From an uncultured Bacteroidales bacterium (GTDB lineage Bacteria > Bacteroidota > Bacteroidia > Bacteroidales > F082): a DNA stretch of 55,543 bases. The position numbers and the translations under genes were made by a program. Shown here in pieces: positions 36,080 to 53,263 of the stretch. The notes beneath the pieces were generated by a model, which was not told the DNA's origin, did not search any database, and saw nothing but the letters and a program-made list of their open reading frames with translations. Position 1 is the first letter of the stretch. The number at the start of each line of letters is the position of its first letter. The DNA lies in contig ONFF01000022.1 in assembly GCA_900317055.1 (NCBI GenBank), positions 1 through 55,543 of the forward strand. Direction: 5' to 3'.

Positions 36080-36145
36080 AGACGCAATGATTGTGTCTCC
36101 TGAAAAATGGAATTAATTTGAGACGCAATCATTGCGTCTCTACAA
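36077..36145. repeat. Palindromic repeat pair (GTAGAGACGCAATGATTG type)
   Basis: Two inverted 24-bp arms, GTAGAGACGCAATGATTGtGTCTC and its complement, separated by about 20 bp. Each arm also folds on itself (GAGACGCAAT / ATTGCGTCTC). It fills the gap between the transketolase subunits and starts at the stop codon of the first. The type resembles dispersed MITE/REP-like elements of Bacteroidota; on RNA it would form a strong structure between the two cistrons. Confidence 0.85.
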
Positions 36146-36156
36146 AACGAAACGTC

Positions 36157-38037
36157 ATGAATTACAAAAATAAAGGCAACAAGGCCACAAAGGCTGGTTT
36201 CGGCGAGGGTGTCCTTGCTGCTGCACAACAAGATAAAAGGGTGGTCGGATTGGGAGCCGACATTACCAATTCTGTCGGGATGAACCTTTTTGCAGAGGCC
36301 TTTCCCGAGAGGTTTCTCTCCATGGGTATCGCTGAACAAGATGCCGTGGCAACGGCTGCTGGATTGGCTCTAGGTGGTAAGATTCCCGTCTTTAGCACCT
36401 ACGGCGTGTTTGCGGCGCACCGTGCCAACGACCAGATTCGTATCTCGGTGTGTTATAACAATGTGCATGTCATCATTGGTGGTGCTCATGCAGGTGTTTC
36501 AGTAGGCCCCGACGGTGCCACGCACCAAGCTTTGGAGGACATCGCAGTCATGCGTGTGTTGCCTAACATGACCGTCATTTCGCCTTGCGATGCCACCCAA
36601 GCCAAAATCGCCACGGAGAAAGCCATCCTTGAATGTAAAGGACCGGTCTATGTGCGTTTCGGGCGCGAGGCAGTGCCTGACTTTACTGCTGAAGATCAGG
36701 AGTTTGAAATCGGAAAAGCTCAGCTGATGCAGGATGGTAGTGATGTCACGCTTGTTGCCACGGGACATGAGGTGTGGGAAGCCTTGGAAGCCGCTCACAT
36801 GCTTCAACAAGTTGGTATCTCAGCTCGTGTCATCAATATGCATACCATCAAGCCGTTGGATGGCGAGATGCTCAACAAAGCTGCTGATGAAACCCGTATG
36901 ATCTTCACCATTGAAGAGCATCAGGTTGCAGGCGGTTTAGGTGGTGCCGTAACAGAGTTTTTGGCCGAAAACCATCCTATCCGTGTTGTTCGTATTGGCA
37001 TGAACGACCGTTTCGGTGAGTCGGGACAGGCTTCAGCTTTGATGCATAAGTATGGCCTTGATGCCGCAGGCATCGTTAATCGGGTGCTAGAAATGGTCGC
37101 CAATGATGACCTCAGCATCTATATTCGCAAGATGGGCATGCCTTTCAACACTTATCCCAAGAAGCTGTATAATAGCAAGATACTATATGAAGGCTACGAC
37201 TATCATGATGAGTCGACTTTTGCAACCTGTCACGATACACAGGTCTATAAGCATTATATTGACCAAGGCAAACGGGGACACGAGGTGCGCGAGACCTTAG
37301 CCCGTGCCCTTCACGACCATTTCATCACGCATGAGCTGTACAAAATGCTCGACCTTTATGATGAGAAAGATGTCATTGGCATTATGGGAGGCCATGCCAA
37401 AAGGCGTGATGACCCACAATACCGCCAAATCGTGTTTTTGAGCAAGAAACTGACCGAAATGGGTCGCTTGATGGTCACAGGCGGTGGTCCAGGTGCCATG
37501 GAGGCCACACATCTCGGCGCTTGGATGGCGGGTAGGAGCGAGGCCGAGACCGACGAAGCAGTTGATATGCTAATGCCTTCGCCGACCTACAAGGATGAAG
37601 GCTGGCTTTGCCGTTCTTTCGAGGTAATGGAGCGTTTTCCTCTGCAAACGGACTACCGCAGCCTTGCCATCCCGACCTATTATTACGGTCATGAGCCAAC
37701 GGCGCCATTTGCTACCGACATTGCCAAATACTTCGACAACAGCGTGCGTGAGGATGGTATAGTCACCATTGCCAAGGGCGGCATCATCTACACGTCTGGC
37801 AGTGCGGGCACGATGCAAGAAATCTTCCAAGACGCAGGCCAAAACCACTACGAGAGTGAAGGCTACGCCAGCCCGATGATCTTCATGGGCAAGGACTATT
37901 ACACGAATTGTATGCCCGCCTATTCATTGCTGAAAGATCTGAGCGACAGAGGCTTGTTTAAGAATATGATACTCACCATTTCTGATGACAACGATGAGAT
38001 TATTGAGGCGATAGTGAGGTTTAGGGAGGGGAAGTGA
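36157..38037 (+). CDS. Transketolase C-terminal subunit fused to a LOG/PpnN-like domain
   Basis: A 626-residue protein. Residues ~1-312 are the pyrimidine-binding and C-terminal transketolase domains: FLSMGIAEQDAVATAAGLAL holds the catalytic glutamate, then DGATHQALEDIAVMRVLPN, GPVYVRFGRE and VAGGLGGAVTEFLAE. Residues ~313-626 are a LOG-family Rossmann domain related to nucleotide 5'-monophosphate nucleosidase PpnN: MVTGGGPGAMEATHLGAW and YTSGSAGTMQEIFQDAG (LOG motif GG-x-GT-x-x-E). The frame is continuous with no stop between them. PpnN-type enzymes release ribose 5-phosphate, a transketolase substrate, so the fusion makes metabolic sense (inference). The LOG half is larger than minimal cytokinin-activating LOG proteins. 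The ATG follows the palindromic repeat; an earlier in-frame start would be inside it. Confidence 0.9.
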   Translation: MNYKNKGNKATKAGFGEGVLAAAQQDKRVVGLGADITNSVGMNLFAEAFPERFLSMGIAEQDAVATAAGLALGGKIPVFSTYGVFAAHRANDQIRISVCYNNVHVIIGGAHAGVSVGPDGATHQALEDIAVMRVLPNMTVISPCDATQAKIATEKAILECKGPVYVRFGREAVPDFTAEDQEFEIGKAQLMQDGSDVTLVATGHEVWEALEAAHMLQQVGISARVINMHTIKPLDGEMLNKAADETRMIFTIEEHQVAGGLGGAVTEFLAENHPIRVVRIGMNDRFGESGQASALMHKYGLDAAGIVNRVLEMVANDDLSIYIRKMGMPFNTYPKKLYNSKILYEGYDYHDESTFATCHDTQVYKHYIDQGKRGHEVRETLARALHDHFITHELYKMLDLYDEKDVIGIMGGHAKRRDDPQYRQIVFLSKKLTEMGRLMVTGGGPGAMEATHLGAWMAGRSEAETDEAVDMLMPSPTYKDEGWLCRSFEVMERFPLQTDYRSLAIPTYYYGHEPTAPFATDIAKYFDNSVREDGIVTIAKGGIIYTSGSAGTMQEIFQDAGQNHYESEGYASPMIFMGKDYYTNCMPAYSLLKDLSDRGLFKNMILTISDDNDEIIEAIVRFREGK

Positions 38038-38067: not shown

Positions 38068-41000
38068 TTAGTTTTTCACAAATGTTTTTGAAACGCATTC
38101 TTGATCCGTTACGATTCGGATGAAATACACACCCGTTTTTAGGCTACTCACATTCAATATGACTAAATCTTGTTGTTCCACTTCATGGTCCTCCACCAAT
38201 TGTCCAAGCGAGTTATAGATAGTGATACATTTGATGTCATTGCCTTTGATGCAGAGATTGTCGCTTGCTGGATTGGGGAAAAGCTCGACCGCTTCACATT
38301 TTTCGTCAATGCCGTCAACATGTAAGAAGTGGGCAATGAGGTGGCGCGAGTGAGCAACGATAAATGTATAAGTAGCTGATTCTGATACAATCGTGTTGCC
38401 TTCGGTCCAATTTTGGAAGAGGTAGCTGTCATTGGGAACTGCACTAAGTGTGGCTGTTCCGCTAGCAGGATAAGTTCCCGCTCCAATGATGATGCCGCCA
38501 ATCTCAGGGTCGGCTTCGGCAGTTATTTCGTAAGACAAGGGAATGAAATGGGCGACGAGGTCGCGGTTATTCGTTACGATAAAACTGTAGTCAGGCTGAT
38601 CCGAGACTTGAGTGCCATTCTCCGTCCATTTGATGAAGGCAAAGCCTATGTTGGATGAGGCATGAATTGTGCAAGTTTGTCCGTAGTTGAATGTTCCACC
38701 ACCGCTGGCATTTCCACCTTCTGTGGGGCTGGCGGCAACATTTATGGTGTAGTCAACCATGGTGAAGTGCGCAACAAAGGTGGCCGATTCGGTGACGGTG
38801 AAGGAGTAGGAGGGGTTGGTAGAAACCTGTGTCCCATTCTTGGTCCACCTATGGAAGACAAACCCTGTATTGGCTGTGGCAGAAAGGGTACAGTTATCAC
38901 CGTAGTTGTAACCTCCTGATCCAGAAATGGTACCACCTTCTGCTGGATTGGCCATGGCAGTGATGATGTAGTTTTGTGTAGTGAAGTTGGCCACTAGATT
39001 TCTGTCAGAAGTGATGGTAAAGGTGTAGGATGGCTGGTTGGAAACAGGATTTCCGTTTTCCGTCCAATTGATGAAATTGAAACCGTAGTTGGTTGTTGCT
39101 GTTACCGTACAGTTGTCCCCATAATGGTAGGCACCACCGCCTGAGACCGTGCCGCCATTGGAGGGACTGGAGGAGATGCTGATGACATAGTTGTTTAACT
39201 GGAAATGTGCCACAAAACTAGCCGATTCCATCACGGTGAAAGAATAACTGGAGTTGGTTGATACTTGAGTTCCGTCCTTCGTCCAGCGTAGGAAAGTATA
39301 CCCGGGATTTGGCGTTGCAGTCAAAGTACAGGTTTGTCCATAATTGTATGTTCCGTTTCCAGAGATTGTACCGCTGTTATTAGGACTGGCTGTGGCATTG
39401 ATAGTGAAGCTTCTTAGCTGGAAATGGGCTACGTAGCTTGCGGCCTCCGTCACAGTGAAAGAATAGCTGGAGTTGGTGGAGACCTGTGTTCCATTCTTGG
39501 TCCATTTGATGAAATCATAGCCTGTGGCAGGTGTTGCCGTCAAGGTGCATATGCTGCCATAATTGTGCATACCGCCACCGTTGATAGTTCCGCCATTGCT
39601 CGGATTGGCCGTGGCAGTAATGTTAAAGCTTTGCAATTGGAAGTGCGCCACATAGGATGCTGCTTCTGTCACTATGAAGGAATAGATGGGGTCGGTCGAG
39701 ACCTGCGTTCCGTTCTTGGTCCATTTGATGAAGTCGTAGCCCGTAATCGGTGTTGCCGTCAAGGTGCAAGTGCTACTGTAGGTGTAAGTTCCGTTACCGT
39801 TGACTGTACCGCCATTGCTCGGGTTGGCCGTGGCAGTAATGTTAAAGCTTTGCAGTTGGAAGTGAGCCACATAGGCGGACGCTTCTTCCGTCACAGTGAA
39901 GGTATAGTCGGCATTGGTCGATACCTGTGTTCCGTTTTTGGTCCATTTAATGAAATCGTAACCTGTTGAAGGGCTGGCTAACAAGGTACAAGTGCTACCG
40001 TAGTTGTAAGTGCCGTCTCCGCTGATGGTTCCGCTATTGCTTGGATTGGCAGTTGCGGACACCGTGCAAGGAGGATTCCCGACCCGTATGCGGATTGTGT
40101 TCGAGGGGTCGGATTCTCCGTTGAAATAGTTAGTGGTAAGATGGTAATTATAAAAACCAACAGGTACGTTGCTGTTTGTATATGTGCAGCCGCTTATGTC
40201 GGTGGCTATAGCATTGCCGTCACGATAGAGTCTATAGGTGTATGTGCCATCGGTAATGTATGTTTTGATAAGCCATGACCGATCAGTAGTGACTTCCCAT
40301 AGTTGTCCAGTCTGTGAATACAATGAGGCATCTTCAACACCAGTGCTTGAATAAGGACAATAAGAAGCAGGATTACTTGTCTCGGAATAGAAAACGACCC
40401 AAAGGTCTTTGGTGTAGTCAATGACGATAGGTGTAGGAAATACGACATCCTGCCAGCTTCCAGCGGTAGCATTATAGCTTTGCTGATGCACCAACTCGGT
40501 GGGATGGGCGATGTCGCCTTTATAGATGGATATAGTATAGCTGCCTGCGTTACAGGAATAAAATGCAATTTTCTCAATAGCCATTCCTGCATAACTACTC
40601 AATGTCGTTGTAGGGTAGCGGTGTGCCCAATAGGTTCCTCCTTCATATCCAAAATTGTATATTGCATTTCCAGTGCCATATTGTAAAATTGCGTTTTCAG
40701 GGGTTGGAACTTGCCATGATAGGCTGACATTGTCCCCATTCACCGAAGCTTCGAGGCTGTCTGGACTTGGACCTGGAAAATGGACATCTGCGACCACGGT
40801 ACTGGATTTTAAGGACATGGTGCCATCTGATTTCACGCTTTTCACATAATAGGAATGAATGCCGTATGTGACATTGCTGTCAGTATAGCTTGTGGTGTGC
40901 AAGTTGTTGGCAATCAAGTCGCCATCTCGATAGAGTTTATAATAGGCAGCATCGCTAACGCTACTCCAAGTGGTGGTGACATTTCTCTCGCTTACCACGG

Positions 41001-42204
41001 AGTTGATTTCAGCGGGAGGATTGATATTGGGTGTTTGGGGATAGCAATTGAATATGGCACCGTTGTTTCTGTCATATGCCCTGTGGTTTGAGTTTTCCAT
41101 GCAGTTTCTTTGTGGGTTCAAAGCCCCAATCAAAAAGTATCCGTCACTTTTTCCCGCCCAGCCCCAATTGAAGTGGAAGTAATCGTTTTCGTCGTACCCA
41201 TCGCAAACAAATGCATGCCCGATGTTTTCCGTTTCTCTAAGACCTCTATATAGGATGGGGCGTTCAAGATCCAGTTCTTGCTTAAGCATTTCAATCCAAA
41301 GAGAATCAGAATAATAAATCGTGGTGTCAATGGACTTTCTTCTGTATACTATATTTGAGGAGTAATTAAAGTAGTGGGACAATGCGTATACGGAAGACTG
41401 GAGTTTGCCAGCACTCCCGGAGGAGGCATAGTCAGTATTTACGGACACGCCACAATGATACATCAATGTGGCTACAGCCAAAGCCTCTGCATCAGTGTAT
41501 CCTCTTGAATAATAGTTTTTCATGTTGTCCCAATCGTATGTGGTATTGCCAAAATCGACATACTGGCTGCCATATTGAGGATGGTGGTAGGGCGTATACG
41601 AATGCGTCCCATTGCCCTTGATGGGGTATTCCCAATAGTTCATGACTTGAGCCATTGCTGTGGCAACGCAACCCGAATAGCAATGACCGTCTGGTCCTGT
41701 TGGGGCGGCTGGACAAAGATTGTTGAAAGGTGCGTTTTGATACCACTTTGTTCTAATGAGCGGATTGACACTGTTTCTGGATTTAGTAGGTAAACCAATG
41801 CCGTTCAACAGGTTGTTCCATTCTGAATAGATTTCATCATCAGCTTCCAGTCTGCTTTCCGTCACAAATGCAACTTCTTCGTCGTATGCCTTCAACCATT
41901 CGTATATGTTTCCGAGCATTGTTTCCGTTCCAAATCCTCCCTCGGTTGAATAACCCAAAACGGGATGCACGGCATTGTCAGCAGCGATGATGACGAAACA
42001 ATGCTCGTTGCCAAAAATGTATATGTTTGGAAAAGATTCCTTTTCAGCAAAGTCAACAAGATGGATATCCATGTTACTATGCCGTTTGGAATTCAAAAAT
42101 GTCTCGGCAGCCCGCTGTGCTGTTTGCACAGTCACATTCTCAGCGAAGGCTGATAAGACCATGGCTAAAAGAAGGGTCAAAATAAGGATGCTTTTTCTTG
42201 CCAT
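38068..42204 (-). CDS. C10 (streptopain-like) cysteine peptidase with eight InlB-type repeats and T9SS tail
   Basis: A 1378-residue secreted protein. After the signal peptide (~1-21) comes a Spi/prodomain-like region (~22-140), then the C10 peptidase (~150-375). Catalytic Cys179 lies in YSGCVATAMAQVMNYW and His330 in ENIGHAFVCDGYD. A fibronectin-III domain (~395-470), a jelly-roll (~475-625) and another Fn3-like domain follow. Eight ~72-residue InlB_B_2-type repeats (~708-1295) end in a linker and a type A T9SS tail (~1305-1378, ELFPNPASDNLCIKG, LKTGVYFIRIV). C10 relatives include SpeB and PrtT. Repeats 1-4 are most alike (TGYDFIKWTKNGTQVST), so expansion there is recent. A -7 box lies 80 bp upstream. 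Confidence 0.93.
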   Translation of the reverse strand: MARKSILILTLLLAMVLSAFAENVTVQTAQRAAETFLNSKRHSNMDIHLVDFAEKESFPNIYIFGNEHCFVIIAADNAVHPVLGYSTEGGFGTETMLGNIYEWLKAYDEEVAFVTESRLEADDEIYSEWNNLLNGIGLPTKSRNSVNPLIRTKWYQNAPFNNLCPAAPTGPDGHCYSGCVATAMAQVMNYWEYPIKGNGTHSYTPYHHPQYGSQYVDFGNTTYDWDNMKNYYSRGYTDAEALAVATLMYHCGVSVNTDYASSGSAGKLQSSVYALSHYFNYSSNIVYRRKSIDTTIYYSDSLWIEMLKQELDLERPILYRGLRETENIGHAFVCDGYDENDYFHFNWGWAGKSDGYFLIGALNPQRNCMENSNHRAYDRNNGAIFNCYPQTPNINPPAEINSVVSERNVTTTWSSVSDAAYYKLYRDGDLIANNLHTTSYTDSNVTYGIHSYYVKSVKSDGTMSLKSSTVVADVHFPGPSPDSLEASVNGDNVSLSWQVPTPENAILQYGTGNAIYNFGYEGGTYWAHRYPTTTLSSYAGMAIEKIAFYSCNAGSYTISIYKGDIAHPTELVHQQSYNATAGSWQDVVFPTPIVIDYTKDLWVVFYSETSNPASYCPYSSTGVEDASLYSQTGQLWEVTTDRSWLIKTYITDGTYTYRLYRDGNAIATDISGCTYTNSNVPVGFYNYHLTTNYFNGESDPSNTIRIRVGNPPCTVSATANPSNSGTISGDGTYNYGSTCTLLASPSTGYDFIKWTKNGTQVSTNADYTFTVTEEASAYVAHFQLQSFNITATANPSNGGTVNGNGTYTYSSTCTLTATPITGYDFIKWTKNGTQVSTDPIYSFIVTEAASYVAHFQLQSFNITATANPSNGGTINGGGMHNYGSICTLTATPATGYDFIKWTKNGTQVSTNSSYSFTVTEAASYVAHFQLRSFTINATASPNNSGTISGNGTYNYGQTCTLTATPNPGYTFLRWTKDGTQVSTNSSYSFTVMESASFVAHFQLNNYVISISSSPSNGGTVSGGGAYHYGDNCTVTATTNYGFNFINWTENGNPVSNQPSYTFTITSDRNLVANFTTQNYIITAMANPAEGGTISGSGGYNYGDNCTLSATANTGFVFHRWTKNGTQVSTNPSYSFTVTESATFVAHFTMVDYTINVAASPTEGGNASGGGTFNYGQTCTIHASSNIGFAFIKWTENGTQVSDQPDYSFIVTNNRDLVAHFIPLSYEITAEADPEIGGIIIGAGTYPASGTATLSAVPNDSYLFQNWTEGNTIVSESATYTFIVAHSRHLIAHFLHVDGIDEKCEAVELFPNPASDNLCIKGNDIKCITIYNSLGQLVEDHEVEQQDLVILNVSSLKTGVYFIRIVTDQECVSKTFVKN
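38320..40080 (-). repeat. Eight tandem ~216-bp repeats coding InlB_B_2-type domains
   Basis: Eight in-frame units, each coding the pattern [YF]-x-I-x-A-x-[AS]-x-P-x-x-[GS]-G ... C-T-[LV]-x-A ... W-T-[KE]-[ND]-G ... Y-[ST]-F-x-V ... VAHF. The amino-terminal four are nearly homogenised at DNA level, which favours slippage or gene conversion; the eighth is the most diverged and lacks the Cys. Confidence 0.9.
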
Positions 42205-42285
42205 AGTTAGTCGATTTTGGTCGTTTTCAAAGCTTTAAGGCCTTTTATATGCGATTGTTCCAAACTAGAAACTCATAATTTGAGG

Positions 42286-42293
42286 CAAAGATA
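42286..42293 (-). promoter_or_regulatory. -7 promoter box TATCTTTG for the C10 peptidase gene
   Basis: An exact TATCTTTG about 80 nt upstream of the peptidase ATG and 11 bp beyond the stop codon of the RyR operon. It separates the two transcription units. Confidence 0.65.
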
Positions 42294-42304
42294 TGTTTTT
42301 TTAA

Positions 42305-42916
42305 TCACTTGTTATATTTCTTATTGTTATTCTTACTCACCCCTGCTTCTTCTACAATGAACTTTGATGTGCTCTGGATAAGGCTTCGCATAACTGAATT
42401 GCCTTCCTGCTTGTAAATGCTGATGAAGTAGTCCTTCATTTTCTTGCCTCTCTTCATCCATTTCAAGTAGCGATAGTCCCTTTTCCAGTCTTCTATCATC
42501 TTGTCTGAGATAGTGCACTTTTCAACCATTTTGAGTTTAACATTGAATTCCCCAGTTCCCCAATGGCTCTTTCCTCCTGGAAGGGGCATATAGGATCGGG
42601 GTACAATGAAACAATCGCCTGCAAAAGTTAACGGGTGCATCCCTTCCATGTCTTTTTTGTACACAAAGACGCTGTCTGTAAGGCTTTCCTTGGTGATGGG
42701 TATCTGAATACTGAAAACGCCTAAATCCACATCTTTTGCCAATATGATGGCTTCGTTGTACCATGAGGAAGAGATGGCGAAACTGAGGCTGAGGGTCAGG
42801 TTGTCACGGTCATTGAACGAAAAACGAATGTCGCGGTCGTAATCCTTTCCTACTTCAGGGAAAATCTGGTTAGCCGACATATTGGGTAAATGGCAGCGGT
42901 ATGGTTTCTTGGTCAT
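42305..42916 (-). CDS. Orphan protein, last gene of the TIR/MscS/RyR operon
   Basis: A 203-residue protein that I do not recognise. It has no signal peptide or transmembrane helix. The first ~120 residues look beta-rich (IRFSFNDRDNLTLSLSFAIS, VDLGVFSIQIPITKESLTDS) and may form a sandwich or ligand-binding fold. The last ~70 are highly basic and helical (KRDYRYLKWMKRGKKMKDYF), ending in a lysine/asparagine tail. The ATG is embedded in the stop codon of the Rossmann-RyR gene (ATGA), so the product is translationally coupled and probably acts with it. A longer frame upstream would only overlap that gene. Confidence 0.75.
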   Translation of the reverse strand: MTKKPYRCHLPNMSANQIFPEVGKDYDRDIRFSFNDRDNLTLSLSFAISSSWYNEAIILAKDVDLGVFSIQIPITKESLTDSVFVYKKDMEGMHPLTFAGDCFIVPRSYMPLPGGKSHWGTGEFNVKLKMVEKCTISDKMIEDWKRDYRYLKWMKRGKKMKDYFISIYKQEGNSVMRSLIQSTSKFIVEEAGVSKNNNKKYNK

Positions 42917-44469
42917 GGCTGGGCTTCTTTGAAAGACTGGGCAATCAACGGAATGCATGCAGTAAGGTCGTAGTCATAGAGTTGGACGTTTTGTCCGGTC
43001 TTGTCCTCGCGCAGTTCGCGGTAGGAGCAAAGGTCGTAATGGATTTTTTTCTTCTTGTAGATGTTCTTCAGGTCTTGTTCAGGTGCAGTGGTCCCTGTTT
43101 TTTTGGCTGTAATGAACGCTTCGATATTCTCGCGGATTTCCTCGCGTTCCATGTCGGTGGGAGGGCGGAAGCCTAAAATCAGCCGCTCCACACTCCAACG
43201 ATTGTGCTCCACTGCCGAAAGCGTTTCGATTTCATCTTGTGTTAGGGCATAGAACTTGTCCCAGTCCTTTTCTTCATGACCTAATGAACGCATTTTCGTG
43301 GCCAAGGTCATCACATTGTAGATGTTGGAGTAGCGCATACTAAAGGTTTGCACTTTGCGCCATGTGGCCTCGACTTTTTCGACAGGCATGTCGGTAGGGG
43401 TGCCTTCCTGGCCGTAACTGCATGTGTAGAAGTAGTTAAGCCGTTTGGCCATTTGTAAGAGAGGCAGGCGGATGTCGTAGCCACAATTGTCCATGCCGAT
43501 AGGGTAAAGGTTGCGGTAACCATCGGTTTTGCGAACTTTCTCCAACATGGTTGAGCTTTCCGTTGCGACCAGTACGGTTATTTCGTTCTGATAGAAGTTT
43601 TTGGGCAGGGCAAAGGCTCGGTCGAAGTTACTGCTGTGGTCGGTATCGCATAAAGCGAGGGTCAGAAGCTGTTCTTTGTTGTCAGCCCAAAGCTGTAGTT
43701 TCTGTTGAAGCAATGGATCGTAAAAGTCGCCGTCCACGAATTCCCATTCCACATCCACGAAGTCTTCTCGCGAGGAATGATAGAGTGGCTCGTGGTATAG
43801 TGTCATGCTGTGTTGTTTCAGGTCGATGTTGCGGTAGTAAGAGTGTTCGAAAAGGTTGGAGTAGCGTTGGATGAAGGCGTCTTTTTTTTCCGTCATTGCT
43901 TTGTCGACAATGGTAATGCGGGTGCGGAGAGTTTGGTTGCGCACATAGTTGGGGAAGTGGGCAATGAGGGCGGCATGGAGAGCCATGCTTTCGCCAAGGT
44001 CGCTAAAGCCTGCGATGACCAGATGCACGGTCTTGTTCGATGCTGTGTCGATCTTTTCCCTATCCAAAGGCGGATAGACAGCTCTTTTGCCAAGTCCGCA
44101 AAGCACGTTCTTTGCCCATTGGTCTTCCATCGTAAAGGCATACAGCTCAAACTTCTTGTGGATTTCGGGATAGAGGTCGAGGGTTTGCAGCAGCCAAAGC
44201 GTCACCTTGTCGTGTAGCAGCAGGTGACACAAGGGCTTGGATTGGCCTTCTGGAGCCTCGGGATAGTCCATGGCAAATGTTTCCAAGGCTTGTAAGACCT
44301 CGTGGTCGGCAGTTTCCTTTTGTGGCAAGATGCAAAGCTCGTTATAGTCTTTGCATTGTGCCTTTTCTATAGTGTCAGCCATCTCAATGCCGCAGCCCAA
44401 GGCTTCGTATTGCTTGACGATGCTTTTGCGGATGGGGTGGGAACCGATTATAAGTGCTTTGTTGTTCAT
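42913..44469 (-). CDS. Rossmann (TrkA-N-like) protein with C-terminal RyR domain
   Basis: A 518-residue soluble protein. The N-terminus (~4-70) begins like a Rossmann fold (ALIIGSHPIRKSIVKQYEAL). A second nucleotide-binding-like unit (~145-310) opens with VHLVIAGFSDLGESMALHAA and resembles TrkA-N/RCK modules. Residues ~405-505 form a RyR-type domain (ALTQDEIETLSAVEHNRWSV, LILGFRPP, HYDLCSYRELRE, LTACIPLI). RyR domains occur in ryanodine receptors and in bacteria with RCK-like domains. Bacterial roles are unproven but proposed to be nucleotide or ligand sensing. It lies 18 bp after a second RyR gene and 4-bp overlaps the orphan. Confidence 0.82.
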   Translation of the reverse strand: MNNKALIIGSHPIRKSIVKQYEALGCGIEMADTIEKAQCKDYNELCILPQKETADHEVLQALETFAMDYPEAPEGQSKPLCHLLLHDKVTLWLLQTLDLYPEIHKKFELYAFTMEDQWAKNVLCGLGKRAVYPPLDREKIDTASNKTVHLVIAGFSDLGESMALHAALIAHFPNYVRNQTLRTRITIVDKAMTEKKDAFIQRYSNLFEHSYYRNIDLKQHSMTLYHEPLYHSSREDFVDVEWEFVDGDFYDPLLQQKLQLWADNKEQLLTLALCDTDHSSNFDRAFALPKNFYQNEITVLVATESSTMLEKVRKTDGYRNLYPIGMDNCGYDIRLPLLQMAKRLNYFYTCSYGQEGTPTDMPVEKVEATWRKVQTFSMRYSNIYNVMTLATKMRSLGHEEKDWDKFYALTQDEIETLSAVEHNRWSVERLILGFRPPTDMEREEIRENIEAFITAKKTGTTAPEQDLKNIYKKKKIHYDLCSYRELREDKTGQNVQLYDYDLTACIPLIAQSFKEAQP

Positions 44470-44487
44470 TGGGTTGGCTCTTGTTCT

Positions 44488-45651
44488 TTAAATAGCGTGC
44501 CTAACCCTTTCCAATATCTTGGGAATGGCCAGCATCAAGAAACTATCGTATTTCAAATCATCAGGACTGATACGGCGTAAGTCATGATAAGAACATAAGT
44601 CGACATGGGCAGGATCCGAAGCGTTGTTTTTCAGCTTTTTGCGGAAGGCCTTGCGCTCTTCTCCAAAAAGGCTTTCATATTGAAAACGCTCTTGGTCACT
44701 ATAAGGCCGATAGCCCATGATGAGTTTCTCTACCACCCAACGTTCATGCTCGCTTCTCGAAAGGGCGTCATTGAATTTTTCCCACACATCTTCAATTGTC
44801 TTGTTTTTCTTGTCTCTCTCATTTGCTTTTTTCTTTTGCTCTTTTGCCTGCCATCTTTCGATTCCCTTGTTTCTCGATTCGAAACAATCAGCACAGAAAA
44901 GATTCGACAGGCTCTCCTTGACCATGGTCAAGTTGCCCTTCCATTTTTCATCGTCAATCAATGGGGTTATTTTCTTTGACATTTGGACATGTTGGTATTT
45001 GCCCAATGCCTGAGTGTACCGTTTCGCACAATGGATATCTTCGGCCGGTAGGTTGCCGATAACATCGCCAAGATTGTACATTCTGCTGGCAAAGACAGCG
45101 CTTCGTGTGTCAATCTCATATAGATTGTTCTCTTTTTTAGATTGGATGAAAGCCTGTACATCTTCTTCGGTCATCAGTACTGTGTTTGGCATATCGTTCT
45201 TCGACAATACTTTTACAATCTGCAATTCGATGTCAATATACGAATCCTTGTTTTCTTCCATCCCGTTGACCGAATACTTGCAGTAGTCCAGCAGATTGCA
45301 TAGATACTCCTCCTTCTTCAATTCACTTGCAATGTTTTCGTTTTGGCTCACTAAAGTGATGACAGTGCGGTTGGTGCAGACGAGTTTCCCGTAAACATCG
45401 TATTCTACATAATTGACATAATGAGCTGACAATGCCACCTGTCGTACCACTGCTAGCATCAAGGGACTATCATCAGTCACCACCACATGCAGATGCCCAT
45501 AGTCGTTTGGCGCAAAAACAAAGTTTTTGAGCTTATCCAAAACATAGGCACGAGCGATATACCAATGGTTGATGGTTTCGCGTGAAAATGCTTTACCATC
45601 CTTATGCGTCAGATATTCAAACGGTGTTTCTTTTTTTATCTCTTTTGTCAT
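44488..45651 (-). CDS. RyR-domain protein coupled to the MscS-like channel
   Basis: A 387-residue soluble protein. The N-terminal ~190 residues look like a degenerate Rossmann/TrkA-N region (LHVVVTDDSPLMLAVVRQVA, NRTVITLVSQNENIASELKK) with missing glycine motif. A charged helical linker (~265-295, AKEQKKKANERDKKNKTIED) leads to a C-terminal RyR domain (~300-385, ALSRSEHERWVVEKLIMGYR, HVDLCSYHDLRRISPDD, FLMLAIPKIL). It is a shorter paralogue of the next protein. Its ATG overlaps the stop of the channel gene (ATGA), so the two are made in step and probably interact. Confidence 0.8.
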   Translation of the reverse strand: MTKEIKKETPFEYLTHKDGKAFSRETINHWYIARAYVLDKLKNFVFAPNDYGHLHVVVTDDSPLMLAVVRQVALSAHYVNYVEYDVYGKLVCTNRTVITLVSQNENIASELKKEEYLCNLLDYCKYSVNGMEENKDSYIDIELQIVKVLSKNDMPNTVLMTEEDVQAFIQSKKENNLYEIDTRSAVFASRMYNLGDVIGNLPAEDIHCAKRYTQALGKYQHVQMSKKITPLIDDEKWKGNLTMVKESLSNLFCADCFESRNKGIERWQAKEQKKKANERDKKNKTIEDVWEKFNDALSRSEHERWVVEKLIMGYRPYSDQERFQYESLFGEERKAFRKKLKNNASDPAHVDLCSYHDLRRISPDDLKYDSFLMLAIPKILERVRHAI

Positions 45652-46796
45652 TGCTCAGCTTCTTTTCTGTAGTTCGCAGGTTTGTCGGACATGAACACAT
45701 TGCAGTTTCCGGCATCGTAGGCGGATGGACTCTGATACAATCTTAGACCAAACCAGTCGAGTGACTCTATGATATGTTCGATAATCTGAGACTGTTGCCA
45801 CTCAAAGGAGGAAAGGTTGCTGTCGATGAGGAAGGCATAAACTTGCAAGGGCATACCGCTTTCCACTTGTTCCAACCATCTCACTACAAGGCGCGGTTGT
45901 TGGGAAATGTGCGGATGGTTCATTAGCCAATGGTATAGGTACATCCGGTAAAGATGAGCGTTGAGGGCACCTTCGTGTATTTCTGTCTCAGGCAAATAGG
46001 CATGGGTCCCGTCTCCATCAAACTGCTTGTTCAACTGTTCAGCCTCATCTTTGGAAAGAGCATGGAACCAGCCCGTGTCCAAAATGAAAGACTTGAACAT
46101 CCTCCGTCCGTAGGTTTTCCCTTCCATCATGTTTTGGAGGTTGATAAAATGGTCCGAATGCAATGCACTGATGGGAATGGTGGAGGTCGTTGTGTCCCAG
46201 TTATAGATAGTTACGGTGGTCAGCGATACCCTTTTCACTTCACCGTCAACATTGTATTTGGGTACCTGAATCCAATCGTCGATATTGAGCAGATGGTGTA
46301 AACGAAGGTGCAAAAAAGCAATCGCCCCTTTGACTTTGTCCTGGAATATCCAAGCCAGTAGCGCGCCAACAATACCAAACACAGTAGCGCTCTTGTCGCT
46401 CTTTGGAATGTCGAAGATCCAAATGAATCCAATAATCCAGAGGCCGATGCCAAGAAGAATGAATATTTGGCACCAAGTGATGCCGTTTTCATTTTTGCGT
46501 AGCGTGTAAATGTTGGTCAAAGTGTTGCATACCCCAAAAACAAGTGATGCGGAAATAGTCAGAAAGATAATCTTATACCACTTGCTTCTGATAGCCATTG
46601 CTATGAAGTCATGTATGCGGATCAGATGCGACTCTGAATTGAGGCATTTTTGCCAATTATAGAGCGATAGTAGTGACAATGCTGCCATAACAAAAAAAAG
46701 TAATGTCACCAGCCACCACCATTTGTAGATCATCGCCCCCATAATCCGAGTAATGCCTCGTTCGGAGGACATCCATTTTTCGCTTAGTTTTTTCAT
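45648..46796 (-). CDS. MscS-family mechanosensitive channel, YbdG-like
   Basis: A 382-residue inner-membrane protein. Hydrophobic segments lie at ~28-48 (WWWLVTLLFFVMAALSLLSL), ~72-94, ~108-130 and ~135-165. The last is the MscS pore helix region (ATVFGIVGALLAWIFQDKVK, GAIAFLHLRL), followed by the beta domain with the YbdG-type signature DDWIQVPKYNVDGEVKRVSL and VTIYNWDTTTSTIPISAL. A cytoplasmic cage domain of ~170 residues ends the protein. YbdG-type MscS proteins often act as osmotic sensors with low conductance. The start is the ATG; an upstream in-frame TTG adds two residues. Confidence 0.87.
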   Translation of the reverse strand: MKKLSEKWMSSERGITRIMGAMIYKWWWLVTLLFFVMAALSLLSLYNWQKCLNSESHLIRIHDFIAMAIRSKWYKIIFLTISASLVFGVCNTLTNIYTLRKNENGITWCQIFILLGIGLWIIGFIWIFDIPKSDKSATVFGIVGALLAWIFQDKVKGAIAFLHLRLHHLLNIDDWIQVPKYNVDGEVKRVSLTTVTIYNWDTTTSTIPISALHSDHFINLQNMMEGKTYGRRMFKSFILDTGWFHALSKDEAEQLNKQFDGDGTHAYLPETEIHEGALNAHLYRMYLYHWLMNHPHISQQPRLVVRWLEQVESGMPLQVYAFLIDSNLSSFEWQQSQIIEHIIESLDWFGLRLYQSPSAYDAGNCNVFMSDKPANYRKEAEQ

Positions 46797-46874
46797 TTCC
46801 AAATCGATTAGATACTGGATTGGAATCCACTCGTCGTTAATCTCCAGGAGTTGATAATTCTATCAACTTGTTTT

Positions 46875-47195
46875 CTATTCCAGCAATCTCCTCATCGCCC
46901 TCACCATCTGCTCCTCCATCATAGTGCACTTCTCATCAGCTTCGATGACGGCGCAGAGATCTGCCAAGAGGTCGATGCGGTCACCCTCGGTGGCAGCGTA
47001 TAAAGGCTTGTTCTCGCGGATGCAGGCAATGACTTCGGCATCGCTCATCTTGGAGAAAAGCTTTTCCGTTTTTTCAACGGCATCGAATCCGCTCCTTTCG
47101 AGCATTACTTTCACTTCTTCCGATTTGATGTTACCATCGATGTTGGCGGCATAAAGCATCACCATCGTCTTGAATTCTTCTTTGTTGAGTGTCAT
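46875..47195 (-). CDS. TerB-like (tellurite-resistance family) protein
   Basis: A 106-residue all-helical protein. The pattern (VMLYAANIDGNIKSEEVKVM, then LYAATEGDRIDLLADLCAVI-EADEK) fits a TerB-like fold, with acidic ADEK/DGN positions as in the metal-binding helices of that family. TerB proteins associate with membranes and with Ter-type stress systems. Here it sits between the TIR-FGE-WD40 gene (36 bp upstream) and the channel gene, so a tethering or sensor role is plausible. The match is by pattern only and should be checked by a profile search. Confidence 0.72.
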   Translation of the reverse strand: MTLNKEEFKTMVMLYAANIDGNIKSEEVKVMLERSGFDAVEKTEKLFSKMSDAEVIACIRENKPLYAATEGDRIDLLADLCAVIEADEKCTMMEEQMVRAMRRLLE

Positions 47196-47231
47196 GGTAT
47201 GTTGATTGTTTAATTGTTTATTAATGAGGTT

Positions 47232-49256
47232 TTAATAATTCTTTTCCCAAATTATAATGGTATGGTCGTCAGAGGCAGACACTATTTGCTTGTCATTAGG
47301 GCTAAAAAAGGCAGAGTTGACGAAATTGTTATGTCCTTTCAATATCTGAATACAATTACCTGTTAGTGCATCCCATACACGGATAGTATTGTCATCTGAT
47401 GCCGAAACAATATATTTTCCATCAGAGCTGAAAGATGCTGAGTTCACGTCGTCATCATGACCTTCTAACACTTTTATACAATTGCCATTCTTTGCATCCC
47501 AGATGCGAATTGTACAATCTGCAGAGGCAGATACTATGTGCTTTCCGTCTAGGCTATATTTTGCATGCCAAACGCCATCATTATGTCCGTACAAGACTTG
47601 CATGCAAGATCCAAGATTGCTATCCCAGATGCGTATTGTTCCGTCTTCTGACGCAGATACGATACTTTGACCGTCAGGGCTGAAACAAGCATGATTCACA
47701 TCTCTTACATGACCATACAACGTTTTTATGCAATTGCCAGTAGTTAAATTCCAAATGCGTATTGTATTATCAACGGAGGCGGAAACAATGATCTTGCCGT
47801 CAGGGCTAAAAGAGGCTGACCAAATGCTGTCTTCATGCCCAATAAGTATCTGCAAACAAGAGCCAGACTTCACGTCCCATGTCCGAATCGTTCCGTCGTC
47901 GGAAGCGGATACAATACAGTTGCCATCAGAATTAAACGCAACACATGTGACGAAATCATTATGCCCTTTTAATCTAGTAAGATGATTTCCGTTTTCAGCG
48001 TCCCAAATACACAACGTGTTATCGTCCGAAGCAGAAGCGATTAGCTTGCCATTAGGGCTGAAAAGGGCTGATTCTACAGAATCTTTATGCAAGAGAGTTA
48101 ACTTGCAATGATAGTTGTTGAGCCCGACATCATCCTTTGTTAATGCAAGTCTTAATCCTAATCCACCATGGCTTTTGAAGTTTGGAGGCCCTGCTTTACG
48201 TGCGGTTGGTTTGCAATTTTCTGTTTCACACCAGCAACCTCCTTTATAGATACGGAACATCCTAGGGATTTGTCCTGCCAATAGTTGGCTCATGTCGACG
48301 AATTCTTCTATTTCATCTTCGCACCATTCCCATACATTCCCACTCATATCATACAACCCAAGTTCATTTGCTTTTTTTTGTTTTACAGGATGTGTGGTGT
48401 TCTCGCTGTTTTCAAGATTCCAAGCTACTTCATCGAGAATATTGCTACCGCTATACAGGAAATTACGACTTTGTGAACCTCCTAGGGCAGCATATTCCCA
48501 TTCATCTTCTGTGGGAAGCCTGAAGTGCATTTTTGTCAAGTTGTTAACTCGGTTGATAAAGAGTTGACAGTCATTCCATGATACACTGTCTACGGGATGG
48601 CTTTCTCCCTTGAAGCGCGATGGGTTGTCTTGCATAATCGCACACCACAACAACTGGGTTACAGGAGTTTCACCCAAAAAGGTCCTGTCTGTAACTTTTA
48701 TCATCGAAAAAGGGACACCCAAGACAGTGTAATCCAGGTGTGTATTTTTATCATCATTATTTTGGGATAGACGAACACTACTTTGCGGAGTCGTGTGAGG
48801 AGAAGGGCCTTTCCCTTCATTTACTCTCTTTATGGTTTGCCCCTCCTTGATTTTTAACCAATGTGAGAGGTCTCTTATCAGTTTCTCTATTTCGGATTCG
48901 GTTTTTGCTCTTACTTGTTGCTTTTGAGGAAACATGAAAATGAACCAATTGGATAACGGGATATCGTCAATGTTTATAAAAACAATGCGTTTTTTCCTCT
49001 CCTGAGCATAATTCAATTCCCTTATAGTCCAATCGGTGGCATAATTGTCTATGATTGTATGGGCTTTTGAGTACATGAAAAGGAATACGCTCGCTTCGTC
49101 TATGGCATTTATTATTACGCTTGCGAATTGAGCATCGCTTTCGATCTCATCGATGTCCATCCAACATGTCTCATTCAAATCATTTTGGATCCTGTCAACA
49201 ATAAGAAAGACTTTTTCTTTGTCAACTCTTTTATATGAAATGAAGATTTTTGCCAT
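47232..49256 (-). CDS. TIR-FGE-WD40 multidomain protein
   Basis: A 674-residue cytosolic protein. Residues 1-~135 are a TIR domain (KIFISYKRVDKEKV; WMDIDEIESDAQFASVI; DWTIRELNYAQERKKRIVFI), with Glu80 in the place of the NADase glutamate. Residues ~175-372 are a formylglycine-generating-enzyme-like (FGE/sulfatase-modifying factor) domain: HFRLPTEDEWEYAALGG, GLYDMSGNVWEWCED, and GGCWC in place of the usual GGSW. Residues ~388-674 are seven WD40 repeats, enough for one closed propeller; each has a GH...D/S-G-K-x-I-V-S-A-S-x-D-x-T-I-R-I-W pattern. Such combinations occur in bacterial conflict systems. It starts 29 bp after the DUF4301 gene and heads the operon. Confidence 0.92.
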   Translation of the reverse strand: MAKIFISYKRVDKEKVFLIVDRIQNDLNETCWMDIDEIESDAQFASVIINAIDEASVFLFMYSKAHTIIDNYATDWTIRELNYAQERKKRIVFINIDDIPLSNWFIFMFPQKQQVRAKTESEIEKLIRDLSHWLKIKEGQTIKRVNEGKGPSPHTTPQSSVRLSQNNDDKNTHLDYTVLGVPFSMIKVTDRTFLGETPVTQLLWCAIMQDNPSRFKGESHPVDSVSWNDCQLFINRVNNLTKMHFRLPTEDEWEYAALGGSQSRNFLYSGSNILDEVAWNLENSENTTHPVKQKKANELGLYDMSGNVWEWCEDEIEEFVDMSQLLAGQIPRMFRIYKGGCWCETENCKPTARKAGPPNFKSHGGLGLRLALTKDDVGLNNYHCKLTLLHKDSVESALFSPNGKLIASASDDNTLCIWDAENGNHLTRLKGHNDFVTCVAFNSDGNCIVSASDDGTIRTWDVKSGSCLQILIGHEDSIWSASFSPDGKIIVSASVDNTIRIWNLTTGNCIKTLYGHVRDVNHACFSPDGQSIVSASEDGTIRIWDSNLGSCMQVLYGHNDGVWHAKYSLDGKHIVSASADCTIRIWDAKNGNCIKVLEGHDDDVNSASFSSDGKYIVSASDDNTIRVWDALTGNCIQILKGHNNFVNSAFFSPNDKQIVSASDDHTIIIWEKNY

Positions 49257-49285
49257 TTACAAATCAAAGAATTTCGAATGTGACA

Positions 49286-50797
49286 TTAACTATGCATCGG
49301 CTTCAGCAAATCGTTCACGGTCTTCACGGGGTTGAAGGTCTCGATGGGCACTTCGACAAAGATGGTGATCCAGTCGGCCATGGCGCCGTTCCAGAGACCG
49401 GGCAGCTCCAAGGCTTTCAACTCACGGCCGTCCTTCGACTTGTTGGAGATGAAGCCTGTGTTGGCATCCACATAGTCGGTCAGGCAGAAGGCCTCGCCTT
49501 TGTAATTCCAGCAGCCGCACACGAGGTCGACGGGGTTGAAGTGTGTCGAGCCTTGGAAGATGGCTTCTTGAGCCTCGTCTTTGTGGTTGATTTGCGAGGA
49601 TTCAATGATTTGCAGCGACACCTCATCGTCCATGTTTTTCACCCAGAAGGGACCGCCTCCTGGCTCGCCTTCGTTCTTCACCATGCCACAGATGCGCATC
49701 GGGCGGTTGAGCTTGTTGTATAGGTAGTCGATCTTCTCAATATCGTTGTAGTCGTTTACGAAGTCTGGGATGTCCATCATCAGTTGCTCTTTGGCGAAAC
49801 GGATGGCTTCGTTCAGTTCGTCGGTAGAGACCGCACCCTGGTCGAGCATTTCCAAATACTCGAACGAGCGTTGCTGGAGGTGGAGTAGGAGACCTGCCAA
49901 CACCTTCTTATATACGATGGTGGTCTGCGCCTTGGTCTCGGGCACGATGTTGTCGATGTTCTTGATGAAGACGATTTCCTCGCCGAGGTCGTTCAAGTTT
50001 TCGATGAGGGCACCGTGGCCTCCCGGACGGAACAGAATCTTGCCGTTGGCCTCGCGGAACAACTCACCGCTGGCATCGATGGCTACCGTGTCGGTGGAAG
50101 GTTTTTGGCAGGAATAGGTGATGTTGTAGCGCACACCGTATTTCTTCTCATAGTCGGCTTTCAGCGCGCTGACGGTCTTCTTGAACGGCTCTTCATGTTC
50201 AGGTGAGACGGTGAAATGCAATTTGGCAACACCTTCGTTGTCGGTGGCATAACGGGCCGCTTCCACCAGATGTTCTTCCAAAGCTAGACGGTTGAAACCA
50301 TCATAATGATGGAATTTCAACAGGGCCTTTGGCAATTTGCCGTAGTTGAGGCCGTCTTCCAAAAGAAGGGCTTTTACAATATCAACTTTACGGCCTTCCT
50401 TTAATAAGGTGTCGATGTTGTTGCTATAGAGGCGTTTGACGGCAGCGTTGAGGTCATCAAAGAAAGCGAAGCTATGTATGTGGGCGAAAAAGATGTCGGT
50501 AAACTTGGTCTCTTCGGCGGTCTCGATGAAGGCGAAGAGATCTTTGAACATGCGCGAGGCAGCACCCGAGGCAGGGACAAACTTCGTGAACTGGTAGAAT
50601 TCCTTGTCGGCCTCAAAGCTGGCGGTCATTTGTCTAACTTGTTCTTCGTCAAGACGCAGGATGCCGTCGCCAAGGGTGGCAGGGCGCATCAGTTGAACAT
50701 ATTGTGTGCCGCGTTTGAGCTGCGCAACTTGCTGTATTACTTGATTTTCGTTGATGTTTCTTTCCGAAAGCTGTTGAAGGTCTTTTTCTGTAAGCAT
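49286..50797 (-). CDS. DUF4301 family protein
   Basis: A 503-residue protein matching the Bacteroidota family DUF4301 in length and sequence. It contains a nucleotidyltransferase-like region (FVPASGAASRMFKDL near ~74, glycine-rich RPGGHGALIENLNDLGEEIV near ~255, then MVKNEGEPGGGPFWV). Function is unproven; the SGAASRM motif resembles sugar-nucleotide pyrophosphorylases. It lies upstream of and on the same strand as the TIR gene, so some transcription may continue into that operon; only a weak -7-like ATTCTTTG is present in the 29-bp gap. Confidence 0.85.
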   Translation of the reverse strand: MLTEKDLQQLSERNINENQVIQQVAQLKRGTQYVQLMRPATLGDGILRLDEEQVRQMTASFEADKEFYQFTKFVPASGAASRMFKDLFAFIETAEETKFTDIFFAHIHSFAFFDDLNAAVKRLYSNNIDTLLKEGRKVDIVKALLLEDGLNYGKLPKALLKFHHYDGFNRLALEEHLVEAARYATDNEGVAKLHFTVSPEHEEPFKKTVSALKADYEKKYGVRYNITYSCQKPSTDTVAIDASGELFREANGKILFRPGGHGALIENLNDLGEEIVFIKNIDNIVPETKAQTTIVYKKVLAGLLLHLQQRSFEYLEMLDQGAVSTDELNEAIRFAKEQLMMDIPDFVNDYNDIEKIDYLYNKLNRPMRICGMVKNEGEPGGGPFWVKNMDDEVSLQIIESSQINHKDEAQEAIFQGSTHFNPVDLVCGCWNYKGEAFCLTDYVDANTGFISNKSKDGRELKALELPGLWNGAMADWITIFVEVPIETFNPVKTVNDLLKPMHS

Positions 50798-50899
50798 AAT
50801 GATAGGTTTTTAAACGCTTCAAAAATAAGAAATTAAGTAATGCGAAGAAAAAAAACTACAAAAAATTTCTTGAAACGGTTGCAGCATTGAAAAAAGTTG

Positions 50900-50907
50900 T
50901 ATCTTTG
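50900..50907 (+). promoter_or_regulatory. -7 promoter box TATCTTTG for the tRNA-Leu genes
   Basis: An exact -7 box 60 bp upstream of the first tRNA. A TTG about 19-21 nt earlier may be the -33 element. It should drive both tRNA-Leu genes. Confidence 0.7.
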
Positions 50908-50967
50908 CAGCCGAAATCGAAAGATTCAACGAAGTCACATGTGTAGCATATGACTGAGTTAATTCAA

Positions 50968-51051
50968 GCCCAGGTGGTGAAATTGGTAGACACGCCACTT
51001 TGAGGGGGTGGTGCCGATTACGGCATGCAAGTTCGACTCTTGTCCTGGGCA
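50968..51051 (+). tRNA. tRNA-Leu(GAG)
   Basis: An 84-nt class II tRNA. The acceptor stem GCCCAGG pairs with CCTGGGC, discriminator A. The D-arm reads TGGTGAAATTGGTAGACA, the anticodon loop TTGAGGG gives GAG (51002-51004), a variable arm is present, and the T-arm is GCAAGTTCGACTCTTGT. The CCA end is not encoded. Confidence 0.97.
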
Positions 51052-51061
51052 CTGATTCCAA

Positions 51062-51143
51062 GCCCCGATGGCGGAATTGGTAGACGCGTACGTTTCAGGT
51101 GCGTATATCGAGAGGTGTGCAGGTTCGACTCCTGTTCGGGGCA
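51062..51143 (+). tRNA. tRNA-Leu(CAG)
   Basis: An 82-nt class II tRNA 10 nt after the first. Acceptor GCCCCGA pairs with TCGGGGC, discriminator A. Anticodon loop TTCAGGT gives CAG (51096-51098). The T-arm is GCAGGTTCGACTCCTGT. Its 3' end is a typical target for site-specific integration in Bacteroidota. Confidence 0.97.
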
Positions 51144-52406: not shown

Positions 52407-52430
52407 GGTTATAGAGTATTAAGGTTAGTA

Positions 52431-53189: not shown

Positions 53190-53212
53190 TGCGTTTCGAT
53201 TTTGGTGTTTTC

Positions 53213-53241
53213 AAAAAAAGCCGCCCGACTGGACGGCTTTT
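53213..53241 (-). terminator. Terminator-like hairpin between DUF6266 genes
   Basis: On the minus strand AAAAGCCGTCC-AGTC-GGGCGGCTTTTTTT forms a stem of about ten pairs including one G-T, ending in a T run. It separates the first paralogue from the next two, whose expression must then depend on read-through or a promoter inside the 30-bp gap. Confidence 0.7.
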
Positions 53242-53263
53242 CAACATTCAACCCGATAAGCGA

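Follow-up and report, generated by a model that had tools for sequence, protein, structure and literature searches.

An MscS-type channel paired with an RCK-RyR-like protein near TIR genes in Bacteroidales: a candidate signal-gated channel

Background

Can a nucleotide signal made by a TIR domain be read by an ion channel in bacteria? The question is raised by six genes that lie in a row on the minus strand of a 55,543-nucleotide stretch of DNA (assembly GCA_900317055.1, contig ONFF01000022.1), the whole of which we call the window, from an uncultured Bacteroidales bacterium with a genome of ~3.5 Mb. In their order along that strand they encode a TIR-FGE-WD40 protein (gene 1), a TerB-like protein (gene 2), a channel of the MscS superfamily (gene 3), two soluble proteins with putative RCK modules and RyR-like C-termini (genes 4 and 5), and a product first described as an orphan (gene 6). 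Nucleotides derived from TIR activity are established activators of NADases and other effectors. A preliminary description of the window, made from its letters alone, had proposed that TIR activity and channel gating are linked here through RyR sensors within a dedicated set of six genes. Our survey of related genomes shows that genes 3 and 4 form a constant unit, that TIR genes lie near this unit far more often than uniform placement predicts, and that residues aligning with the ligand contacts of a phage RyR-domain enzyme are conserved in the RyR-like domains. The recurrent linkage and the conserved residues fit the proposed sensors; the dedicated six-gene set is not supported.

A constant pair of a channel and a soluble protein

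The argument turns on four genes, which have the following positions in the window.

47232..49256, minus strand: gene 1, 674 amino acids (aa), with a TIR domain (~48957-49247), an FGE-sulfatase-like domain (~48144-48647) and seven WD40 repeats (~47241-48089), by Pfam profiles
45648..46802, minus strand: gene 3, MscS-superfamily channel (PF00924), 384 aa if counted from a TTG codon, whose role as the start is uncertain
44488..45651, minus strand: gene 4, soluble, with a Rossmann/RCK-like N-terminal part and a RyR-like C-terminal domain (~44491-44796; residues H302, W305, H349, D369), by hhalign, residues and an AlphaFold2 model
42913..44469, minus strand: gene 5, soluble and RCK gating-ring-like, with two putative Rossmann modules and a RyR-like C-terminal domain (~42916-43257; residues H422, W425, H477, D499), by Foldseek and hhalign

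A pattern-based scan with the gene-4 alignment, run over a collection holding one genome per species, returned 43 loci of the gene-4 family, mostly from Bacteroidales and frequently from ruminant samples. Immediately upstream of gene 4 lies a relative of gene 3 in every locus that has upstream sequence (40/40), the other three of the 43 starting at a contig end. This linkage is far above chance. The constant unit of these loci is the MscS gene together with gene 4 and nothing else, as TIR, TerB, TPR, CHAT, trypsin-like and gene-5 genes vary from one locus to another.

The identification of gene 3 as an MscS-like channel, already made in the preliminary description, is borne out by its score of 38.9 bits against PF00924 (cut-off 20.2) and by the match of its family profile to YnaI, the nearest solved relative in the PDB (E 2.7e-8, profile positions 23-211). 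The protein has three hydrophobic segments and, judged by these matches, the beta-domain and pore helices expected of the superfamily; we take it to be YbdG-like as well. A profile of the paired MscS proteins gives the window protein 610.8 bits, against at most 183.1 for other relatives among the matches listed, in a search (E 1e-20) that matched 72 of 395 class genomes, the window's own included. The MscS proteins partnered with the gene-4 family form a clade of their own. The window's genome has another MscS relative (G000:C18:40503-41411, L149 of the MscS search), which contains one in-frame stop and at which the gene-4 profile finds no match.

The idea that the pair is widespread was dropped: the gene-4 profile matches only 2 of the 395 class genomes, one being the window's own and the other encoding a channel-type protein in a frame of 756 aa. 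One scan of viral contigs for gene 4 found no relative, so that a phage origin of this gene is unsupported.

RCK-like modules and a divergent RyR-like domain

No transmembrane segment is predicted in gene 4 or in gene 5. The N-terminal part of gene 4 may be a Rossmann RCK module: hhalign relates it to channel relatives at 95.9 percent over 96 columns, its model being without a PDB fold match. For the gene-5 model (pLDDT 72) the top Foldseek match is the LjCASTOR gating ring (probability 1.00, E 2.1e-3, TM-score 0.36), with gating rings of BK channels lower among the matches, and the protein is accordingly modelled as paired Rossmann RCK modules of gating-ring type. Relatives of gene 5 with 637-722 aa, of which 21 were aligned, have hydrophobic N-terminal segments (at least two in each of the four checked), an RCK region and a shared C-terminal domain in one chain; we refer to them as transmembrane (TM)-RCK-RyR channels. 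The profile of the 21 channels matches an RyR1 chimera (2.4e-7), DMI1 (2.9e-5), CASTOR (3.2e-5) and also BK channels in the PDB; a single channel protein searched against PDB sequences gives chance-level matches only. Among the same 21 proteins, Pfam (E up to 0.1) reports a Slo-like RCK region in 14 and RyR in six.

Genes 4 and 5 had both been described as RyR-domain proteins, a designation that fails at the level of direct profile matching and is supported only through their relatives. The Pfam RyR profile (PF02026) matches neither gene, the listing of 20 families for 36 members of the gene-4 family does not include RyR, and no RyR chain occurs among the 50 listed Foldseek matches of either model. 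Matches of the gene-4 profile to PDB sequences are at chance level, and scans with Pfam, PADLOC, NCBIfam and PHROGs yielded nothing useful for genes 4-6. Profile-profile comparison by hhalign, however, connects the C-termini of the TM-RCK-RyR channels to those of the gene-4 family (99.1 percent) and of gene 5 (99.7 percent) on one side and to canonical RyR (95.6 percent) on the other, with reversed controls at 0.1. This chain is strong, and suggests that the C-termini of genes 4 and 5 are related to RyR by way of the channels. A distant relative, at locus L127, bridges the gap between genes 4 and 5 and canonical RyR: TrkA_N (43.1 bits) and RyR (43.5 bits) are matched within a single protein, each above its cut-off.

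According to the available part of a 2026 preprint (PMC13232231), RyR-domain proteins of phages bind 2'cADPR and 3'cADPR (forms of cyclic ADP-ribose), and in one of them, RyDEP, the ligand is contacted by H75, W78, H100 and D117, with H75 and D117 being catalytic. By sequence alignment, as distinct from structure superposition, these contacts correspond to H302, W305, H349 and D369 of gene 4, which are conserved in 36/36, 36/36, 33/36 and 36/36 family members, and to H617, W620, H658 and D675 of the channels (21/21, 21/21, 21/21 and 20/21); all four are found in 7/7 members of the gene-5 family. The channel C-terminus has only seven invariant positions out of 88, and these include three of the four ligand-type residues. 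Such conservation of H, W, H and D fits a role of the RyR-like domains as sensors of TIR products.

Linkage to TIR genes

A TIR open reading frame (ORF) lies within ~10 kb of the pair in 24 of 37 genomes (36 loci and the window). The expected number, from the TIR counts of the same genomes under uniform placement, is 0.73, and the maximum of 200,000 draws was 6, in a test that assumes independent genomes and TIR genes and uses rounded genome sizes and a custom TIR profile. Seven of the 43 loci were left out of this count (L064, L075, L080, L094, L096, L101, and L073, which to judge by its record name is from the same assembly as L074); a TIR-labelled ORF is present in L073, L096 and L101, and the fetched stretch of the other four has none. 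With the window's own chromosomal site left out (eight counted loci), TIR is near the pair in 20/29. The neighbourhood survey that the preliminary description had called for bears out a repeated association of the channel with a RyR-type sensor and with TIR genes (40/40 for MscS, 24/37 for TIR). It extends to loci of the gene-5-type family without the MscS pair, where TIR occurs in the fetched stretch of 17/24.

A class-wide control points to the RyR-like end as the feature with which TIR is associated. The channel profile matched 25 of the 395 class genomes, the window's own included, and 21 loci in 21 of the 24 others were examined, some on short stretches (L136, 5.7 kb; L146, 11 kb; L139, 13 kb); G330, G293, G500 and a second place in G345 matched and were left out. 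TIR is nearby in 3 of the 4 loci with a RyR-like end (L126 to L129), as against 0 of the 17 without it (one-sided Fisher p 0.003). The end in L128 is a weak C-terminal match (24.7 bits), with a canonical RyR gene in the same stretch. On rechecking the 21 genomes with Pfam TIR, the RyR-bearing locus was found to hold TIR genes of G345 (1/1), G371 (2/2) and G212 (1/3), and G398, also of the class with the RyR-like end, had zero. In L127 a TIR/beta-propeller gene is followed 23 bp later by the TrkA_N and RyR protein described above.

Several of these loci have further features. In L126 (6138-12219), from a genome of another family, genes for an nSTAND1 NTPase, a TIR-DUF4062 protein and a TrkA_N protein with a RyR-like end adjoin on one strand, the TIR being the sole Pfam TIR of its genome; an nSTAND1 NTPase beside a TIR gene is a setting typical of defence. 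All ten TIR matches of genome G152 (locus L063) fall on one contig, at 53.6-76.8 kb, and the stretch of the MscS/gene-4 locus takes in eight. Macro-TIR and SIR2-TIR fusions (L025:3568-4659 and L025:5072-6469, by Pfam) adjoin the MscS/gene-4 pair, and similar genes are detected by custom profiles in L067 and L097.

Exchange of channels at one chromosomal site

The window's genes occupy a site with the following borders.

49286..50797, minus strand: DUF4301 gene, upstream border of the site, common to related loci (PF14134, 730.7 bits)
36091..38037, plus strand: C-terminal part of transketolase with a SLOG-like stretch, downstream border, common to relatives (PF02779 and PF02780 over cut-off)

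At this DUF4301-transketolase site the MscS/gene-4 pair precedes TPR and TIR-TM genes in L059, L060 and L066, and a single TM-RCK-RyR channel precedes the same TPR and TIR-TM genes in L047 and L055. This exchange ahead of the same genes is the best evidence that the pair and the single-chain channel serve one function. Of the other loci at the site, L070, L071, L075 and L087 have nothing but the pair, and L093 has the pair with a stand-alone RyR gene.

Variable genes and flanks

The six ORFs lie between the DUF4301 gene and a C10-type peptidase gene (38068-42204), with spacers of 36 bp between genes 1 and 2, 72 bp between genes 2 and 3 and 18 bp between genes 4 and 5, and overlaps of 4 bp between genes 3 and 4 and 46 bp between genes 5 and 6. 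Their coordinates, strand and order agree with the preliminary description, from which only the ATGA overlap of genes 5 and 6 has to be removed, in view of the 46 bp found. The three modules it ascribed to gene 1 are all recovered by Pfam: TIR by PF13676 (45.7 bits, cut-off 28), FGE by PF03781 (112.6 bits, cut-off 23.3) and WD40 by PF00400 over seven stretches. A regular expression finds a WxxxE-type motif at W76-E80. The two remaining genes of the row are as follows.

46875..47195, minus strand: gene 2, TerB-like, 106 aa (PF05099, 23.1 bits)
42305..42958, minus strand: gene 6, the 'orphan', broken 3' half of a gene for a 406-aa protein, with its junction to the gene-5 end at ~42904 (blastn boundaries)

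The TerB assignment of gene 2 is a near miss, a profile match being seen at a score below the cut-off of 24.4. Its close relatives (E < 1e-25) number 18 among 149 family genomes, window included, and a gene-5-type match lies near 11 of the 18 (at 12.4 kb in one case, within 10 kb in the other 10), in a check queried with gene 5 by which loci holding gene 4 alone may be missed. TerB as an obligate partner was rejected on the other 7/18, near which there is no gene-5-type match.

Gene 6 is not the intact orphan it was taken for, nor did it hold up as a functional gene, for blastn boundaries reveal a broken 3' piece joined to gene 5. Similarity to gene-5 relatives stops, depending on the relative, between 42,913 and 42,888, from the gene-5 stop itself to 25 bases beyond. 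A different protein is matched from 42,904 to 42,897 onwards, ~9 bases past that stop, and the match sets in halfway along it, at ~codon 190 of 406. The intact form, of 406/407 aa, stands upstream of gene 5 in L027, L028 and L074, where gene 5 is followed by a gene of a trypsin-like cluster (member L023_10, PF00089 21.9 bits, cut-off 20.6). As gene 6 is a fused, broken remnant, the window's version of the locus has lost or rearranged material there. An N-terminal hydrophobic segment in the intact form of L027 (L027_9) suggests that the 406-aa relative is probably exported.

Fuller operons of relatives carry TPR, CHAT, trypsin-like and kinase-like proteins, and the CHAT protein of L027 (L027_8) likewise has an N-terminal hydrophobic segment. 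In L026 (6209-14509) a block of four genes (clusters c49-c52) with a CHAT protein is present in two tandem copies, CHAT being seen in the first.

Among the flanking genes, the transketolase C-terminal half at 36091-38037 is in frame with a weak match to SLOG cluster 4 (PF18306, 20.8 bits, below the cut-off of 26.3); the long transketolase/SLOG-like ORF is present in several relatives, with a 315-aa ORF in its place in two. In the C10 peptidase a propeptide of the Spi-type inhibitor kind is combined with eight repeats of InlB-B type and a sorting tail for a secretion system. Three DUF6266-family paralogues stand in tandem at 51720-53935, the first of which ends with a Bac_DNA_binding match slightly below cut-off. 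Promoter and terminator scans of the window gave results at shuffle level.

A proposed mechanism and its alternatives

We propose that the core is a two-gene ligand-gated channel, in which gene 3 would supply an MscS/YnaI-type pore and gene 4 a constant cytosolic partner in contact with it, built of a Rossmann/RCK-like module with a divergent RyR domain at its end. Gene 5 would be a second gating-ring subunit, CASTOR/BK-like and with the same RyR end. Gene 1 would use its WD40/FGE part to detect an insult, probably infection by a phage, and its TIR domain would then produce an NAD-derived messenger of the cADPR type. Binding of the messenger by the RyR/RCK subunits (genes 4 and 5) would open, rather than close, the pore of gene 3, so that ion gradients collapse and growth stops. 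We hold the chances to be even that the RyR/RCK subunits sense an NAD-derived signal of TIR origin and open a channel in response, in a Thoeris-like arrangement with a channel as effector. Somewhat more tentative is the general form of this proposal, that bacteria have TIR-signal-gated channels, in which RyR domains carried by MscS-associated or TM-RCK channels would recognise cADPR-type messengers from neighbouring TIR enzymes and, under phage attack, open the pore.

A number of observations weigh against this mechanism. TIR is missing within ~10 kb at 13 of the 37 gene-4 loci (one of which, L095, has a nearby Pfam TIR that the custom profile missed) and at 4 of the 8 pair loci counted at the window's own site, and in L070, L071, L075 and L087 the pair without TIR stands among housekeeping genes. 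Among the 42 TIR ORFs in gene-4 loci, 26 bear even a loose W/YxxxE pattern located anywhere. Twelve of the 17 RyR-less control genomes have no Pfam TIR at all and five have TIR on other contigs only; because of those twelve, the fairer contrast is 3/3 against 0/5 (p 1/56). Set directly against canonical RyR by hhalign, the gene-4 and gene-5 C-termini give non-significant values (0.3 to 3.4 percent), and at E 1e-3 or better Foldseek returns no PDB match for the confident gene-4 model (pLDDT 91.9) or for that of gene 5. No PADLOC model assigns genes 2-6 with confidence, and the added TPR, CHAT and trypsin-like genes, some of whose products are probably exported, would also fit envelope stress.

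The alternative that survives best takes the MscS protein and gene 4 as a channel for ion or osmotic homeostasis, tuned in an RCK/KTN-like manner by an adenine nucleotide such as NAD(H) or ATP, with the TIR genes as frequent passengers at the variable sites that the pair also occupies. Rossmann and RCK folds are classically binders of NAD or ions, which suits such tuning. The loci without TIR, in several genomes, keep this explanation alive, and R12 of the animal RyR binds adenine ligands (PMC13232231, in the part available). A passenger role is harder to reconcile with an enrichment of TIR that is far above chance and persists at 20/29 loci outside the DUF4301 site, and with a class-wide linkage that goes with the RyR-like end rather than with the channel (3/4 against 0/17). 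We therefore consider homeostasis possible, at about half the likelihood of the signal-gated channel.

In a second alternative the RyR-like domains would end or buffer the TIR signal, binding or hydrolysing cADPR as RyDEP does and thus protecting the host, and the channel would reclose as the signal drops. The (nearly) invariant H and D of the RyR-like domains align with the catalytic dyad of RyDEP, H75 and D117 (PMC13232231, in the part available). Canonical RyR, mostly as a small protein, is common where the pair is: it occurs in 21 of the 37 pair genomes, as against 4 of the 395 class genomes (three over cut-off) and 0 of 14 control genomes, and of 26 near-full-length matches in pair genomes 21 come from frames 97-167 aa long and 18 have an over-cut-off TIR less than 10 kb away. 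Against this alternative, RyDEP cleaved the signals in the preprint and the eight homologues tested did not, and the fusion of the domain to gating modules in the channels and gene 5 suits a sensor over a scavenger. We judge signal termination unlikely.

That the six window genes are one dedicated six-component system is very improbable in spite of their single strand, their short gaps and the lack of any listed minus-strand terminator-like site in 42000-51100 (in a scan at shuffle level), for gene 6 is broken, the set is absent from all locus maps made, TerB relatives are near gene 5 in only 11/18, and around the one constant pair TerB, the type of TIR and gene 5 change independently of one another.

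Relationship to known systems

The signal-gated channel proposed here may represent a type undescribed so far, in gut and rumen bacteria. A literature search over titles and the starts of abstracts, covering few subscription papers, nowhere met with RyR-domain channels beside TIR genes. Neither RyR nor MscS occurs in the available part of PMC7159879, no prokaryotic RyR channel was found in that of PMC7016017, and that of PMC13232231 has no mention of bacterial RyR channels of this type.

With Thoeris the locus has in common a TIR protein adjoining a candidate nucleotide-sensing effector. The effector of Thoeris is ThsA, of SIR2-SLOG or macro-TM type, and its counterpart here would be an MscS pore with an RCK-RyR-like sensor and a predicted ligand. 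As Pfam, PADLOC and NCBIfam (for gene 1, among the best 25 of 68 Pfam matches) find no ThsA-type SIR2-SLOG or macro-TM effector among the six genes, the locus falls outside Thoeris as defined, and the system would resemble Thoeris in its response and use a new effector. If the proposal is true, an ion channel gated by a TIR signal through a RyR domain is a new effector class.

RyDEP and the other phage RyR proteins (R12, PF02026) share with the window a RyR-type domain and, by alignment, the same four ligand residues; judging from the available part of PMC13232231, RyDEP is a counter-defence glycosidase and others are sponges, while here the RyR-like domain would sit on gating subunits of a host channel. 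Such a channel, if real, provides a host-side reason for the RyR-domain sponges and enzymes of phages.

The RCK gating-ring region of gene 5 and its TM relatives is also that of CASTOR/DMI1 and BK (Slo1), from which the window's proteins differ in their RyR-like C-terminus, in the solubility of the gating subunits and in the MscS type of the pore. The pore domain of gene 3 is shared with YnaI-type MscS channels, although gene 3 belongs to a distinct clade with a cytosolic RCK-RyR-like partner.

The animal ryanodine receptor (R12 region) resembles these proteins in having a RyR domain that serves an ion channel, and direct matches to ryanodine receptor chains are obtained with stand-alone bacterial RyR proteins that adjoin gene 4 or the channels; the receptor's pore, size and gating apparatus are unrelated to those of the bacterial channels. 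If the proposed mechanism is true, the link between cADPR and a RyR-domain channel in animal calcium signalling has a place inside bacterial immunity, and the old question of whether cADPR acts on the RyR domain of the ryanodine receptor becomes testable in small bacterial proteins.

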